In this document: piece by piece, positions 18,133 to 61,009 of the stretch
How positions within the stretch are numbered: the first letter of the stretch is position 1
How the letters are laid out: every line of letters begins with the position of its first letter
Assembly (NCBI RefSeq): GCF_004135285.1
Contig: NZ_CP035494.1
Location: 2,604,001-2,668,000, forward strand
Direction of reading: 5' to 3'
DNA length: 64,000 nt
Source of the DNA: Microbacterium protaetiae
Lineage (GTDB): Bacteria; Actinomycetota; Actinomycetes; Actinomycetales; Microbacteriaceae
Notes under the pieces: model-generated
Database searches by the model: none
Told to the model about the DNA's origin: nothing
Seen by the model: the letters and a program-made list of their open reading frames with translations, nothing else
Made by a program: the position numbers and the translations under genes

Positions 18133-18447
18133 CTACGCGGCGTTGCGGATCAGGATGCGCCAGCGGTCGGGACCCTGGTCGAGGTAGCTCGTGGAGTAAC
18201 GGTCGTCGTACCGCGCCTCGAGCTGGGCCAGCAGGGGGAGCGGGTTGTGATTGGCCGAGATGATGAGGCCGGCTCCGGGAGTCAGCGCCTCGACGGCGCC
18301 GAAGATGGCCTGATGGCGAATCGCGTGCGGAATCGTCTGCACGTCGAACTCGGGCAGATCTTCGTTCACCTCACCGCACGTGCACTCCGCGGCGTGGTCG
18401 TGGGCGGCGGCCTCTTCGGGCGACCGGTGGATCTCGATGTTCGACAT
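18133..18447 (-). CDS. DUF2249 domain protein
   Basis: The 104-residue protein carries the DUF2249 pattern with IPHAIRHQAIFGAVEAL and the ANHNPLPLLAQ loop, and an N-terminal His/Cys-rich stretch (HDHAAECTCG) that could bind a metal. DUF2249 proteins are small, often occur with denitrification, NO-responsive or haemerythrin-type genes, and have no established reaction. Here it is divergent from the nitrite-reductase operon and shares a 68-bp control region containing a palindrome. GGGAG precedes the ATG. Confidence 0.88.
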   Translation of the reverse strand: MSNIEIHRSPEEAAAHDHAAECTCGEVNEDLPEFDVQTIPHAIRHQAIFGAVEALTPGAGLIISANHNPLPLLAQLEARYDDRYSTSYLDQGPDRWRILIRNAA

Positions 18448-18465
18448 GGCGACTCCCGTCTCGTG

Positions 18466-18485
18466 TTCGCGATGGCATTCGCGAA
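18466..18485. promoter_or_regulatory. Palindrome in the divergent DUF2249/regulator spacer
   Basis: TTCGCGA (18466-18472) and TCGCGAA (18479-18485) form a 7-6-7 dyad between two divergent genes, just upstream of the -10 at 18503. It is a good candidate operator for the neighbouring winged-helix regulator. Confidence 0.5.
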
Positions 18486-18502
18486 GTCCGCCGCAAGTTT
18501 AT

Positions 18503-18508
18503 TACAAT
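18503..18508 (+). promoter_or_regulatory. -10 TACAAT, leaderless promoter of the regulator
   Basis: TACAAT lies 7 nt before the GTG at 18516, which would put the transcript start at or next to the start codon. The surrounding 30 bp are unusually AT-rich for this genome. Confidence 0.6.
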
Positions 18509-18515
18509 AGATTCC

Positions 18516-19061
18516 GTGGAAATTCGTGCGCGCGCAAACGATCGGTCGCCGGCCGGAGCGACGATGCGTCCGGCACGCCCCGAGGGCCCAGGACAGCGGC
18601 GGCTTTCGGCCAACGGACGCCGGCACTCGACCACCCGCGAGATGGTCCTGCGCATGATCGAGGCGCAGAGCGCCCCGGTCTCGACAGCGGCGCTGTCGAC
18701 CGCGACCGGTCTGCACGAGAACACGGTGCGCGGGCATCTCGAACAGCTCTTCATCGACGGGTACATCGGCCGTCAGCGCGAGCCGGCATCGGGCCGCGGA
18801 CGCCCGGCGTGGCTCTGGGTCGCCGCGCGCCCCGACCCCGAGAATCCCTACGCGGCACTGGCCGGAGTTCTCGCCGACACCCTCGCGCACACGGCAGAAG
18901 ATCCCATCGCCCAGGCGCGGGAGGCCGGTCGACGCTGGGGGAGCGAGATCGCCGCCCGACGGGCGCCGCTGTCTGCGGCCGGCGCCGATGCGTCAGCCGG
19001 GGGCACCGACGCCGCCGCCGGGGGCACCGACGCCGCCGCCGGGGCACCGCTGCCGAGGTAG
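18516..19061 (+). CDS. Winged-helix regulator, N-terminal part (frameshifted)
   Basis: This frame encodes 181 residues with a winged-helix DNA-binding domain (about residues 40-105: STTREMVLRMIEAQ, then VSTAALSTATGLHENTVRGH). After about residue 155 it enters a repeated SAGGTDAAAGGTDAAAG stretch and stops at TAG 19059. The family normally continues into a Cys-containing C-terminal domain, and exactly that sequence follows in another frame. Three repeat units carry G-runs at 18999-19003, 19020-19024 and 19041-19044; the first two are G5 and the third is G4. One extra G restores a single product of about 270 residues. Start GTG is supported by the -10 spacing. The related nitrite genes follow immediately. 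Confidence 0.75.
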   Translation: MEIRARANDRSPAGATMRPARPEGPGQRRLSANGRRHSTTREMVLRMIEAQSAPVSTAALSTATGLHENTVRGHLEQLFIDGYIGRQREPASGRGRPAWLWVAARPDPENPYAALAGVLADTLAHTAEDPIAQAREAGRRWGSEIAARRAPLSAAGADASAGGTDAAAGGTDAAAGAPLPR

Positions 19062-19327
19062 CCGAGGCTGCGGCATCCACCCCTCGCGACCTGGTGATCG
19101 ACGTGATGCGCGAGCAGGGTTTCGCGCCCGATGGCGCGGGTGACGAGGTGGTGCTGCGGCGCTGTCCGCTGATCGAGGCGGCCTCGAAGCATCCCACCAT
19201 CGTCTGCGCCGTGCACCAGGGCATGATCGACGGCGTCTTGGCCGCAGCCGGCGAGCAGATGGACACGCGGCTGATCCCGTTCAGCGCACCCGGCCAGTGC
19301 ACTCTGCAGCTGCGGGCCGCGCAGTGA
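19043..19327 (+). pseudogene. Displaced C-terminal part of the winged-helix regulator
   Basis: About 95 codons in a different frame from 18516-19061 encode the continuation (STPRDLVIDVMREQGF, then CPLIEAASKHPTIVCAVH and SAPGQC). Three Cys and a His in this order resemble the Fe-S or metal-binding tail of COG2345/SufR-like regulators. Its TGA overlaps the GTG of the next gene, so this frame is the one coupled to the operon. It has no start of its own, so it needs the upstream frame shifted by one base to be translated. Confidence 0.7.
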
Positions 19328-20517
19328 CCGCGCGGCGGCGTCGCGGACCCTCCTGGCGCCTGATCTGGATTCTGCCCGCCGGGCTGTCGCTTCTGGCAGG
19401 CCTTGACGCCGCGTTGCTGCTGCTGGGCGTGCCCGCGCCGGTGAGCACCTCGCGCCTTCCCGACACGCACGGGATGCTGATGGTGCTCGGGTTCGTCGGC
19501 ACCCTGATCGCGCTCGAGCGCGCGACCGCGCTGGCACGCTGGTACGGGTTCATCGCCCCCGCGCTGCTGGGCCTGGGCGGCATCGCGCTGCTGGCCGACC
19601 CGATTCCGCTGTTCGTCGCGAAGGTACTGCTGGTTGCCGGCACCGCGGCGTTCACGCTCATCTACATTCCGCTGTGGCGGCGCCAGTTCGACGCCCCCCT
19701 GCTCGTGCAGCTGCTGGGCGCCGGCCTGGGCTGCGCGGGAGCTGTCATCTGGCTGACGCAAGACACCATGGACCACGTGCTGCCGTGGCTGATCGGCTTC
19801 GTCGTGCTCACCATCGCCGCCGAGCGGGTCGAACTCGCCCGCATCACGATGGGCCCGAACGCCGGCAACCGCCTGCTCGTGCACGCCTGGACGATCACCA
19901 TCGCCCTGGCCGTGGGCGTCGTCTTCCCCGATCTGGGGGCTATCCTGCTCGGTCTCGCGCTGCTGGCGATGGTGGCCTGGCTGATCGTGCACGACATCGC
20001 GCGACGCACCATCCGTGCGAAGGGCGCCGCGCGCTACATGGCCGCGTGCATCCTGTCGGGCTATGTGTGGCTGGCGATCGCCGGAATCGCGCTGCTGTTC
20101 GGCTACCCCGATTCGCAGCCGGCCTACGACGCCATCGTGCACGCCGTGTTCCTCGGCTACACGATCTCGATGATCATGGCGCACGCCACCACGATCCTGC
20201 CCGCCGTGCTGCACATCGACCTGCCCTACCGTGCCGCCTTCTGGGTACCCGCTGCGATCCTGCAGCTGAGTCTGATCGTGCGCCTGTGGGTCGGCGACGG
20301 CCTCGCACAGCCGGCCGGATGGCAGATCGGCGGCGTGCTGGGCGTGATCGCCCTGCTGCTTTTCGTTGTCACGGCCGTCACGAGTGCGATCATCGGCCCG
20401 CCCACGAAGAAGAAGAAGGATGCCGCGACCGCGCGGGCCGCGGCATCCCCTCGAATCTCCCCCCGCGTGCCGACGACGCCGCGCCCCGCCCCCGGAAAAC
20501 CCGAAGGACAGGCATGA
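19324..20517 (+). CDS. NnrS-like multi-pass membrane protein
   Basis: The 397-residue protein has about ten to twelve hydrophobic helices and a Lys/Pro-rich C-terminal tail. Conserved-looking His residues sit in helices (DTHGMLMVLGF, HAVFLGYTISMIMAHATTILP), as in NnrS-type haem/copper membrane proteins linked to NO stress and denitrification. The GTG overlaps the stop of the regulator's C-terminal frame (GTGA), and its own stop overlaps the start of the nitrite reductase gene (ATGA). The assignment to NnrS is by pattern and context, not by a full motif match. Confidence 0.65.
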   Translation: MTARRRRGPSWRLIWILPAGLSLLAGLDAALLLLGVPAPVSTSRLPDTHGMLMVLGFVGTLIALERATALARWYGFIAPALLGLGGIALLADPIPLFVAKVLLVAGTAAFTLIYIPLWRRQFDAPLLVQLLGAGLGCAGAVIWLTQDTMDHVLPWLIGFVVLTIAAERVELARITMGPNAGNRLLVHAWTITIALAVGVVFPDLGAILLGLALLAMVAWLIVHDIARRTIRAKGAARYMAACILSGYVWLAIAGIALLFGYPDSQPAYDAIVHAVFLGYTISMIMAHATTILPAVLHIDLPYRAAFWVPAAILQLSLIVRLWVGDGLAQPAGWQIGGVLGVIALLLFVVTAVTSAIIGPPTKKKKDAATARAAASPRISPRVPTTPRPAPGKPEGQA

Positions 20518-23207
20518 GCGCCCCGAAGCTGCCCGCCGGCCCGAAACGCCCCGACGACAAGGCACCCAACCGCGGATTCTGGGCGCTGCGCGACATCCCC
20601 ACACTTGTCTGGCTGCTGCTGGTGGTCGCCGCCGTGTTGGCGCACCAGGCGCTGCCCGAGCCGCGGTGGCTGATGATCCACCTGCTGCTGTTGGGCGCGG
20701 TGACCCACGCGATCATGGTGTGGAGCCAGTACTTCTCCTACGCGCTGTTGCGCTCCTCGCCGACCGTCGCCGGGCGCCGGCTGCAGAGCTGGCGGCTCGC
20801 GCTGTCGAACGGCGGTGCGGTGCTCGTGATCGCCGGCGTGCTCTCGAGTGTGTGGGCGCTCACGCTCGTGGGCGCGGCATCCCTCATCGCCGGGGTCATC
20901 TGGCACGGTGCGAGCCTGTACGCCCGGTCGCGAAAGAGCCTGCCGGGCCGGTTCGGGCGCACGATCCGGTACTACATCGCCGCCGCCGCGATCCTGCCGA
21001 TCGGTGCGGGGCTGGGAGCGTGGCTGGCCCATGACAACAGTTCCGCGAATCTCGTGCTCGCCCACGCGCTGCTGAACGTGCTGGGCTGGATAGGCCTCAC
21101 CGTCGCGGGCACCCTCGTGACGCTGTGGCCGACGATCCTGCGCACGCGCGCCGACGATCACGCGGCAGTGGGAGCGGCCCGCGCGCTGCCGGTGCTGGGG
21201 ATCGCGGTGCTCGTGGCTGCCGCCGGAGCCGCGGCCGCCTTTCTGCCGGCTCTGGTGATCGGGCTGATCGGCTACGTCGTGGGCTTGTCGATCATCGGCG
21301 TCTCGTTGTGGCGCGCGGCCCGGCAGGCGCCGCCGCGCAGCTTCTCGGCGCTGTCGATCGGCATGGGCGTGCTCTGGTGGATCGGATGCGTCATCTGGCT
21401 CATCGTGGCCACGATCATCGCTTTCCATTCCGGCACAGGGTTCGATGCGGTGCAGGATGCCGTGGACCAGATCGTGCCGTTCCTGGCGGCCGGATTCGCC
21501 GCCCAGGTGCTGCTGGGCGCGCTCAGCTATCTGATCCCCGTCGTGCTCGGCGGGGGCCCCAGCCCGGTGCGGGTGGGAACGACCGTGTTCGACCGCGGCG
21601 GAGCACTGCGCATCGCGGTGGCCAACGCCTCGCTCGTCGTGTGCGCACTACCGGTGTCGAGTCTCATGCGGGTCGTGGCATCCCTTCTCTACTTCATCGC
21701 GATGGCGTCGTTCCTTGTGCTGATGCTGCTGGGCATGCGCGCGCAGGGCGCGGCGAAGCGCTCGGGTGCGGCGCTGGCTGAGACGAAGGCGGGCATCGCG
21801 TCGGGCGAGCGCCCGCACGGACCGATCACGCCCGAGGGCGACAAGCCGCATCGGGCCGGGCAAGCCGTTGCGGGGCTGCTGGCGGTGGTGCTCGCGGTGG
21901 CGGTGACCGCGGCGATGGACCCGATCTCGCTCGGCTGGGGCTCGGCGGCGGCGGGCGATGCGAACGCGCCGGTGAAGGTCGTGCAGGTCGAGGCGACGAG
22001 CTACAAATACACGCCGAACGTGATCGAGGTGCCGGCCGGCACCCGGCTGAAGATCGAGCTGACCAACGTCGACACCTCGATGGTGCACGACCTGGTGTTC
22101 TCCAACGGCGTGGCCGGGCATCGGCTGTCGCCGGGGGAGAGCGAGACCATCGACGTCGGCGTGATCAGCGGCGACCTCGACGGCTGGTGCTCGATCATCG
22201 GGCACAAGCAGGCGGGCATGACCATGACGGTGAAGGTCGCCGGGGCCGCGGCATCCGGTCCTTCACCCTCGGCCTCGCCCACGCATGACATGGGCGACAT
22301 GGACATGGGCGGAGCCGCCTCGGGTGGCATCGACCTGTCGGCCTCGCCCGGCGAGGGCTTCGAGCCGTACAACGCAACGCTGCCGGCGCTGGAGAAGTCG
22401 GACGGCCCGGTCACCCGGCGTGTGACGATGACCGTCACGGACAAGAAGATCGAGGTGGCGCCGGGTGTCACCCAGACGTTGTGGGTATACAACGGCACAG
22501 CCCCCGGACCGGTGCTGCACGGGCGGGTGGGCGACACGTTCGTCGTGACTCTGGTCAACGACGGAGACATGGGGCACTCGATCGACTTCCATGCCGGATC
22601 TCTCGCGCCCGACGAGCCGATGCGCACTATCGCCCCGGGCGAGAGCCTGACCTACACGTTCACCGCGAACCGCTCGGGCATCTGGATGTATCACTGTTCG
22701 ACCATGCCGATGACTGCACATATCGCAAACGGAATGTACGGCGCAGTGGTCATCGAGCCTGCTGATCTGCCTGCCGTGGACGAGTCGTATGTGCTCGTGC
22801 AGGGCGAGTATTACCTGGGCTCGCACGACGGCGGATCGGTCGACGCCGACAAGCTCGCGGCGGATGAGCCCGATCTGGTCGTGTTCAACGGGTACGCGAA
22901 CCAGTACGACCACGCGCCGCTCACGGCTGCGGTCGGCGACCGGGTGCGCGTGTGGGTGCTGGATGCCGGACCGAATAGGGCGACGAGCTTCCACATCGTG
23001 GGCGGACAGTTCGACACCGTATGGAGCGAGGGGCGCTACCTCGTGCGCCGGTCGGCGGATACCGGCTCGCAGGCGCTGGGGCTCATGCCCGCGCAAGGCG
23101 GTTTCGTCGAGCTGACCTTCCCCGAGGCCGGGCACTACCCGTTCGTGTCGCACTTCATGATCGACGCCGAGCGCGGCGCGCACGGCATCTTAGAGGTGAC
23201 GAAGTAG
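20514..23207 (+). CDS. nirK: Membrane-anchored copper nitrite reductase (three-part NirK)
   Basis: The 897-residue fusion has about ten membrane helices (residues 30-470), then a cupredoxin domain (about 485-580) with a complete type 1 site (His near 523 in MVHDL, Cys near 558 in DGWCSIIGHKQAGM with its His and Met), a Met/His-rich linker (THDMGDMDMGG), and a C-terminal two-domain NirK (about 615-895). The NirK part has all expected residues: GHSIDFH (type 1 His, catalytic Asp, type 2 His), YHC, AHIANGM, the catalytic His in SFHIVGG and the last type 2 His in FVSHFM. It should reduce nitrite to NO on the outer face. No NO reductase gene is in the window. Such fusions are known in actinobacteria. 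Confidence 0.9.
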   Translation: MSAPKLPAGPKRPDDKAPNRGFWALRDIPTLVWLLLVVAAVLAHQALPEPRWLMIHLLLLGAVTHAIMVWSQYFSYALLRSSPTVAGRRLQSWRLALSNGGAVLVIAGVLSSVWALTLVGAASLIAGVIWHGASLYARSRKSLPGRFGRTIRYYIAAAAILPIGAGLGAWLAHDNSSANLVLAHALLNVLGWIGLTVAGTLVTLWPTILRTRADDHAAVGAARALPVLGIAVLVAAAGAAAAFLPALVIGLIGYVVGLSIIGVSLWRAARQAPPRSFSALSIGMGVLWWIGCVIWLIVATIIAFHSGTGFDAVQDAVDQIVPFLAAGFAAQVLLGALSYLIPVVLGGGPSPVRVGTTVFDRGGALRIAVANASLVVCALPVSSLMRVVASLLYFIAMASFLVLMLLGMRAQGAAKRSGAALAETKAGIASGERPHGPITPEGDKPHRAGQAVAGLLAVVLAVAVTAAMDPISLGWGSAAAGDANAPVKVVQVEATSYKYTPNVIEVPAGTRLKIELTNVDTSMVHDLVFSNGVAGHRLSPGESETIDVGVISGDLDGWCSIIGHKQAGMTMTVKVAGAAASGPSPSASPTHDMGDMDMGGAASGGIDLSASPGEGFEPYNATLPALEKSDGPVTRRVTMTVTDKKIEVAPGVTQTLWVYNGTAPGPVLHGRVGDTFVVTLVNDGDMGHSIDFHAGSLAPDEPMRTIAPGESLTYTFTANRSGIWMYHCSTMPMTAHIANGMYGAVVIEPADLPAVDESYVLVQGEYYLGSHDGGSVDADKLAADEPDLVVFNGYANQYDHAPLTAAVGDRVRVWVLDAGPNRATSFHIVGGQFDTVWSEGRYLVRRSADTGSQALGLMPAQGGFVELTFPEAGHYPFVSHFMIDAERGAHGILEVTK

Positions 23208-33176: not shown

Positions 33177-33616
33177 ACAAGGGATTCCTCCCGAAACCTG
33201 GGGCGTCGCCCTGGGTTTCGACGCGAATCCCTTGTTTCGGCGAAGAAGGGGCGCGGGCGCAGGGGTGCGGGCGCGGGGGTGCGGGCGTGGGGCGCGGGGT
33301 GCGAGCCTACTGCGCGCGGAGCGCTGCTGCGCGGGGGCCGCTTGGCGCGGCCTTGTTCGCCCGTGGGCGTTGAGACAAGGGATTCCTCGCGAAACCTGGG
33401 GCGTCGCCCTGGGTTTCGACGTGAATCCCTTGTTTCGGCGAAGAGGGGGCTCGGGGGTGCGGGCGTGGGGCGCGGGGTGCGAGCCTACTGCGCGCGGAGC
33501 GCGAGGCTGCTGCGCGGGGGCCGCTTGGCGCGGCCTTGTTTGCCCGTGGGCGTTCAGACAAGGGATTCCTCCCGAAACCTGGGGCGTCGCCCTGGGTTTC
33601 GACGCGAATCCCTTGT
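33177..33616. repeat. Three copies of a long hairpin repeat
   Basis: Three 59-bp hairpins (33177-33235, 33375-33433, 33558-33616) have 11-bp outer arms (ACAAGGGATTC with its complement) and inner CGAAACC/GGTTTCG arms. They sit in larger near-identical units repeating about every 183-198 bp. The 743-bp spacer 33107-33849 contains these units, a 16-bp repeat near 33130-33175, and the secA leader, with no credible gene. Confidence 0.88.
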
Positions 33617-33667
33617 TTCGGCGAAGAAGGGGCGCGGGCGGCGGGCGACGGGCGCCCAGCGGAGCGC

Positions 33668-33705
33668 GGCGGGCGACGGGCGACGGGCGACGGGCGACGG
33701 GCGCC
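33668..33705. repeat. 7-bp tandem repeat
   Basis: About five copies of CGGGCGA-type heptamers follow the last hairpin unit. The tract is low complexity and a likely site of length change. Confidence 0.6.
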
Positions 33706-33849
33706 GGGCGCCCAGCGCGGCGCGCGGGCCGCGGCATCCCGCGCCTGAACGCCTGCCAGCACCCTCAAAGGTCACGGGCGGATAACATGGGTGGGCGTGC
33801 CTGGGCTCAGGCCGGCGCACCGAATAGACCCGATAGATGGAGATCCTCC

Positions 33850-49966: not shown

Positions 49967-50068
49967 GCCGCACGCTGCACTGGGCAGCCGCGCGATCGCC
50001 GTGCGCTGCCGCACTCCGCCGCACGCTGGACTGGGCAGCCGCGCGATCGCCGTGCGCTGCCGTCCCGA
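49967..50068. repeat. 51-bp tandem duplication
   Basis: Two nearly identical 51-bp units start GCCGCACGCTG at 49967 and 50018. They open the 775-bp gap 49940-50714, which holds only repeats, a promoter and the kgd terminator. Confidence 0.85.
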
Positions 50069-50500
50069 GTGGTCGCTTCCGGCGTGCGATGCGGCAGATT
50101 CGGACGACGATGTCGGCGGCGATGTCGGTGGGGCGGGTGACTGCCGTCCCGATGTGTCGCGTCGGGTGGGTGATGGGACGGATTGGGACGGCGCACGGGG
50201 TGGGGCGGGCTGACGCCGTCCCGATGTGTCGCTTCGGGTGGGTGATGCGGAAGATTCGGACGGCGATGTCGGCGGCGATGTCGGTGGGGCGGGCTGATGC
50301 CGTCCCGAGTGGTCGCTTCCGGCGCGCGATGCGGCAGATTCGGACGGCGATGTCGGCGGCGATGTCGGCGGACGGGCGAACGCCGTCCCGATGTGTCGCT
50401 TCGGGTGGGTGATGGGGCGGATTGGGACGGCGAATGCGGCGGGGGCGGGTGTCTGCCGTCCCGATGTGTCGCTTCGGGTGGGTGATGCGACAAAGTGGGA
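50059..50500. repeat. Array of six 72-84 bp units
   Basis: Units beginning GCCGTCCCGA start at 50059, 50143, 50215, 50299, 50382 and 50455. Long (83-84 bp) and short (72-73 bp) versions alternate, differing by the presence of the GATGTCGGCGGCGATGTCGG stretch. Confidence 0.85.
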
Positions 50501-50636
50501 CGGCAATCGGCCGCGCCGACCAGGTGAGACGGCAATCGGCCGCGCCGACCAAGTGGGACGGCAATCGGCCGCGCCGACGAGATGGGACGGCAATCGGCTG
50601 CGCCAACCGGGCGAGACGCCAATCGGCCGCAGTGAG
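50501..50636. repeat. 29-bp tandem repeat, five copies
   Basis: Units containing CGGCAATCGGCCGCGCC begin at 50501, 50530, 50559, 50588 and 50617 with exact 29-bp spacing (the last copy is diverged). Confidence 0.9.
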
Positions 50637-60552: not shown

Positions 60553-60590
60553 CCCCGCCCCGCCCCCGCCCCGCCGCCCCGCTCTCCCCG

Positions 60591-60982
60591 AGTTGTCCCC
60601 GGGTTGCGCGAGTTGTCCCCGCGTTGCGCGAGTTGTCCTCGCGTTGCGTGACTTGTCCCCGCGTTGCGTGACTTGTCCTTGGGTTGCGCGAGTTGTCCTT
60701 GGGTTGCGTGACTTGTCCTCGGGTTGCACGAGTTGTCCTTGGGTTGCGCGAGTTGTCCTTGGGTTGCGTGACTTGTCCTCGGGTTGCACGAGTTGTCCTT
60801 GGGTTGCGTGACTTGTCCTCGGGTTGCACGAGTTGTCCTCGGAGCGGGAGGGGACAACTCGGGGCAACAACTGGGCAACTCGGGCATCAACGGGACAACT
60901 CGGGCAACAACGGGACAACTCGGGCAACGACGGGACAACTCGGGCAACAACGGGACAACTCGCGCAACGCGGGGACAACTCG
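60591..60982. repeat. Inverted pair of 20-bp repeat arrays
   Basis: From 60591 to 60840 a 20-bp unit (AGTTGTCC..G.GTTGC..G type) repeats about 12.5 times in exact register. After an 11-bp turn, 60852-60982 contains about 6.5 units in reverse-complement orientation (GGACAACTC..GCAAC). The two halves could fold into one very long hairpin. The gap 60553-61021 holds nothing else. Confidence 0.95.
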
Positions 60983-61009
60983 CGGGGCGGGGACACAGGG
61001 GTCCCCGCT

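Follow-up and report, generated by a model that had tools for sequence, protein, structure and literature searches.

Here we describe a frame-broken regulatory gene of Microbacterium protaetiae, located next to a nitrite-reduction gene cluster within a 64,000-nucleotide stretch of the chromosome (NZ_CP035494.1, positions 2,604,001 to 2,668,000 of the forward strand; hereafter 'the window', in whose coordinates positions are given unless a contig label precedes them). The gene is split between two reading frames that part company inside a short G-rich repeat, with an N-terminal winged helix-turn-helix (HTH) in one frame and a three-cysteine sensor domain in the other. The parts of the gene are as follows:

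18516-19061, plus strand: N-terminal half, a GTG-started open reading frame (ORF) of 181 amino acids (aa) taken from the ORF list, with the winged HTH and a stop in the linker
18996-19049, plus strand: tandem repeat (units 18996-19016 and 19017-19037, and a partial unit from 19038; G-runs of 5, 5 and 4), an expansion of the linker
19041-19044, plus strand: run of four Gs within the partial third unit, the point where both frames diverge
19043-19327, plus strand: C-terminal half, in the other frame, with the three-Cys sensor domain and no internal stops

The first-pass annotation had described three repeat units with G-runs of 5, 5 and 4, and direct reading of 18996-19049 bears this out: the unit GCCGGGGGCACCGACGCCGCC is exact at 18996 and at 19017, a partial copy starts at 19038, and the runs occupy 18999-19003, 19020-19024 and 19041-19044. 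For this array Tandem Repeats Finder gives a period of 21, 2.6 copies and a score of 101. Equally in agreement with the annotation, the winged-helix frame ends at 19061 in the ORF list, and the three-Cys half is encoded in another frame, where its TGA overlaps, as GTGA, the GTG start of the next ORF (19324); this second frame is open from 18380 to 19327, i.e. across the whole N-terminal half. The accompanying suggestion that repeat number could also act as a frame switch does not hold: as the 21-bp unit corresponds to seven codons, a change in unit number is unable to switch the frame. Nor is the array rare in its surroundings, since repeats and G-runs of such size are common in the window: there are 62 Tandem Repeats Finder rows at a minimum score of 40, 11 exact tandem-pair entries with a unit of 12-60 bp (some within one array), and 514 and 120 G/C runs of at least 4 and at least 5, respectively, with none of at least 7. 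Larger arrays elsewhere in the window (60589-60995, 33269-33710 and 50058-50630) all far exceed the one at 18996-19049.

When the genus was searched with the N-terminal half, 272 of 366 genomes gave some match; many of these matches are weak, and many of those listed cover the HTH only. Orthologue counts rest on the 30 loci returned (L003-L032), from which the window itself (L003) and L032 (regarded as a paralogue at 38% identity) were left out, giving 28 non-self genus loci. Twenty-five of these encode both halves as a single ORF, two are frame-broken (L005 of Microbacterium elymi within the linker, L011 close to the 3' end), and L028 ends at a contig edge. This rules out two natural genes, including the situation that the first-pass annotation had named as refuting, namely that all close relatives carry two genes here. 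The unbroken homologues that it predicted do exist, although at 209-252 aa (25 aligned; lengths counted from the chosen start, mostly a conserved GTG) rather than about 270. The closest orthologue among the matches listed (L004, genome G069; 78% identity to the N-terminal half) is intact, and the comparison of the repeat with relatives, made for this locus, found no 21-bp repeat there. The linker was measurable in 27 of the 28 loci; counted from a conserved WG up to and including the GF of MREQGF, it is 27 to 48 residues long, and thus tolerates changes in length.

In a further set of 22 named loci, several of which are the same genomes again, the HTH and three-Cys patterns share one frame in 17, L064 with its frame change near the 3' end included; the HTH pattern is missing in L054 (M. 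elymi), L070 and L072, and the Cys pattern in L071 and L074. At L011/L064 (Microbacterium sp. CH12i) the 3'-end frame change fuses the regulator and the NnrS-like ORF that follows it as one 621-aa frame. The closed 'complete genome' of M. elymi KUDC0405 (L054/L078; assembly completeness 68) has the regulator, NnrS-like and NirK-like genes all frame-broken, with the NnrS-like gene spread over three frames and the NirK-like one divided into three pieces. Because these neighbours are broken as well, the M. elymi break looks like an artefact of an indel-rich, poor assembly.

The regulator gene is flanked by the following features:

18133-18447, minus strand: DUF2249 protein (Pfam PF10006, E 1.4e-22), a divergent, conserved neighbour
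18498-18521, plus strand: conserved promoter/operator-like box TTTATTACAATAGATTCCGTGGAA, with a TACAAT -10-like hexamer 7 nt before the GTG
19324-20517, plus strand: NnrS-like membrane protein of 397 aa, in GTGA overlap with the stop of the C-terminal half
20514-23207, plus strand: membrane-cupredoxin-copper nitrite reductase-like fusion, open (Pfam Cu-oxidase_3 and Cupredoxin_1)

The cluster of DUF2249, regulator, NnrS-like and NirK-like genes is conserved. Among the 28 non-self genus loci the DUF2249 gene is present and divergent in all, and the NnrS-like gene follows the regulator in 24; as for the rest, L018 and L031 have the NirK-like fusion next, L008 has neither within the 1.5-kb flank, and L028 ends. 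The product of 19324-20517, for which neither Pfam nor NCBIfam gave a match, is one that we take to be NnrS-like. The fusion scores 171.7 bits against the copper nitrite reductase model NCBIfam TIGR02376, below the cut-off of 296.3, and is for this reason called NirK-like only. The central claim of the first-pass annotation, that the regulator of a nitrite-reduction cluster is broken, is supported. A limited literature search, short of a survey, on nitrite reductase, Microbacterium, the regulator and DUF2249 found nothing. Of 26 aligned loci, our own included, 22 carry TTTATTACA just upstream of the start (L019, L023, L029 and L031 lack it), and the box at 18498-18521 is the sole match in its own genome at up to three mismatches. 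The box probably includes the -10 element of a leaderless transcript and is, by prediction, probably an operator too.

What kind of regulator is it? By analogy, the intact protein is a probable ArnR-like regulator, a nitric oxide (NO)-sensing repressor of the nitrite-reduction cluster. ArnR of Corynebacterium glutamicum is a [4Fe-4S] protein that represses narKGHJI and hmp (PMC12343034; this and the other papers cited are represented by excerpts), and the two proteins share an N-terminal winged helix, a C-terminal sensor with three cysteines and a conserved histidine, an actinobacterial host and an association with nitrogen-oxide genes (PMC12343034). The winged HTH is present in our regulator, with matches for the N-terminal half of the window gene that fall below cut-off in both Pfam and NCBIfam. 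The motif C-x13-C-x30-C is found in 23 of the 25 intact orthologues (the other two being an x31 and an x12 variant), close to the x13 and x29 spacing of ArnR as derived from its residue numbers (PMC12343034), and H216 is invariant in all 25 when aligned. The window retains all three cysteines, but in a separate frame from the winged helix. The sensor half has a TRAPP-like predicted fold, and published modelling ties the ArnR sensor weakly to the TRAPPC3 fold (PMC12343034). A sequence search of solved structures gave 2d1h as the best match (E 3.3e-4), covering the HTH, with no significant match over the sensor half. The regulator differs from ArnR in its neighbours, which are DUF2249, NnrS-like and copper nitrite reductase-like genes rather than those of nitrate reductase, and in that the window gene is frame-broken. 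SufR (NCBIfam TIGR02702) likewise combines a winged helix with C-terminal cysteines; it was rejected, as L004 and L009 reach 16.2 and 20.7 bits, respectively, where the cut-off is 178.8, in a match confined to the HTH, and the neighbours seen at the regulator loci are not suf genes.

The C-terminal half has three further matches in the M. protaetiae genome (G000:C1:9512, 246920 and 2469646), within open frames of 268, 238 and 275 aa, respectively. An unbroken three-Cys paralogue of 255 aa is located at L075 1997-2764 (minus strand; G000:C1, about 9.5-10.3 kb), close to an ORF that is presumably a hemerythrin.

Is the break real? We rank an ordinary recent mutation first, an isolated loss-of-function frameshift to which we assign a probability of about one half, followed closely by a one-off sequence error. 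An indel-rich assembly is not supported for the window's own genome. It consists of one contig of 3.79 Mb with a completeness of 100, and G069 is about 81% identical to it over a collinear stretch; a scan for frame changes from G069 to our genome found two. It covered 143 ORFs that had passed a codon-position test and total 51,420 aa (some may be non-genes), and its filter, adjusted on the regulator as positive control, may overlook breaks elsewhere. The scan compared 600 kb of the 3.79 Mb and therefore only samples the genome-wide rate; an extra 400 kb per genome had raised the count only from 108 to 143 ORFs, presumably because the shared gene order breaks off. The reverse comparison (146 ORFs) gave no frame changes. 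One of the two changes is the regulator gene and the other concerns two overlapping ORFs outside the window (G000:C1:2582343-2584885, minus strand; we take them to be transferase-like), which form one 823-aa ORF in G069; that break lies near a plausible gene junction, and is either a natural junction or a second frame break. As for decay, the ratio of nonsynonymous to synonymous substitution rates (dN/dS) between our gene and L004 is 0.32 for the C-terminal half, against 0.38, 0.44 and 0.60 in intact controls, i.e. without clear decay, and 0.14 for the N-terminal half (controls 0.30-0.36). NucS is present in the genome, MutS_V found no match there, and mycobacterial NucS does not correct indels (PMC9346131).

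Several points weigh against a real mutation in an ArnR-like gene. The frameshift is known from one deposited assembly of one strain and may exist only there; its G-run belongs to a set of almost identical repeat copies, a setting in which consensus calling can go wrong; and the M. elymi artefact in the same linker means that artefacts do occur at the regulator gene. A very young break is invisible to dN/dS, and the test is thus unable to separate a new mutation from an error. The C-terminal half is also looser than the N-terminal one (0.32 vs 0.14) beyond what the controls show (0.38-0.60 vs 0.30-0.36), over 77 codons only; this is a possible hint of relaxation, which would speak against an untouched gene. 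Finally, the ArnR likeness was judged from a published description of that protein.

The strongest rival is that the run length in the third unit was miscalled during sequencing or assembly, in which case the living strain would carry an intact ArnR-like gene. This is a credible account that we place second: the repeat is G-rich with near-identical copies, a C-terminal half free of clear decay is what a working gene would show, and the poor M. elymi assembly has a break in this linker too, along with split neighbouring genes; against it stand the quality of our own assembly, with its two frame changes in 143 ORFs, and the open frames of the adjoining cluster genes.

Phase variation, the logic that the first-pass annotation had read into the repeat, would have run slippage reversibly turn the repressor off and on within a population. 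We find this unsupported and consider it unlikely. In its favour, the gene lacks clear decay, MutS_V is unmatched in the genome, and reversible frameshifting is known in mycobacteria (PMC9346131, PMC8339072): glpK of Mycobacterium tuberculosis varies at a 7C run (PMC9346131), and 74 frameshift scars are reported in 48 genes of that species (PMC8339072). Those cases resemble ours in concerning an actinobacterium without MutS and loss of frame at a homopolymer; they differ in that here the run is one of 4, no second allele is known and selection for reversal has not been seen. Against it, the tract, a run of only 4, is too short to count as hypermutable, in a 64-kb window without a G/C run of at least 7; the unit, a multiple of three, keeps the frame; the repeat is missing from the closest orthologue among the matches listed; and the sole linker break among the 28 non-self loci belongs to the poor M. 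elymi assembly. In Mycobacterium smegmatis reporters, -1 shifts in runs of 4 occurred at 5-18 and +1 shifts in runs of 5 at 10-74 per 1e8 cells, both base-dependent (PMC9346131); we read these values, 5-74 per 1e8 cells overall, as a mutation rate and not as a phase-variation rate. The excerpt of PMC1891110 gives no usable run-length threshold, and a literature search on phase variation and the regulator in Microbacterium found nothing on the subject, as judged by titles. Held with still less confidence is the idea that the linker repeat is a lineage-specific contingency locus, where a minority of cells with another run length would keep nitrite reduction constitutively on in part of the population.

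The least probable account, in our view very remote, is that programmed ribosomal frameshifting or two separately working proteins render the break harmless: both halves do look constrained and the C-half frame is open over the entire N-terminal half, but the sole canonical X_XXY_YYZ slippery heptamer in the N-half frame of 18516-19055 is at 18584, far upstream of the frame junction, which has none, the first C-half-frame starts after the stop (19094, 19103 and 19106) lack a ribosome-binding site by eye, and relatives encode a single ORF; frameshifting and internal restart were both rejected.

Returning to a recent frameshift, we propose the following model. In the intact state, the winged helix of the ArnR-like repressor would bind the shared promoter region, and the C-terminal TRAPP-like domain, with three cysteines and an invariant histidine, would probably hold a [4Fe-4S] cluster, which NO would destroy, freeing the cluster genes. 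A single frameshift in the length-tolerant linker would end the protein before the sensor. ArnR Cys variants lose the iron-sulfur cluster and DNA binding alike (PMC12343034), and by analogy the truncated product should therefore be inactive and leave the promoter unbound. DUF2249 and the nitrite cluster would then be expressed constitutively, without NO, while the next gene may be translated less once the GTGA coupling is lost. Such a loss would be tolerable, given that deletion of arnR in C. glutamicum released hmp repression with, in the excerpt of that report, no significant growth defect (PMC10436651).

If the break is real, the product retains its winged helix and has lost its sensor half. 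The break itself is ordinary, and the gene that it interrupts is the more useful finding: in Microbacterium and some relatives, repressors that are probably ArnR-like and NO-sensing belong to a conserved cluster along with a copper nitrite reductase-like fusion.
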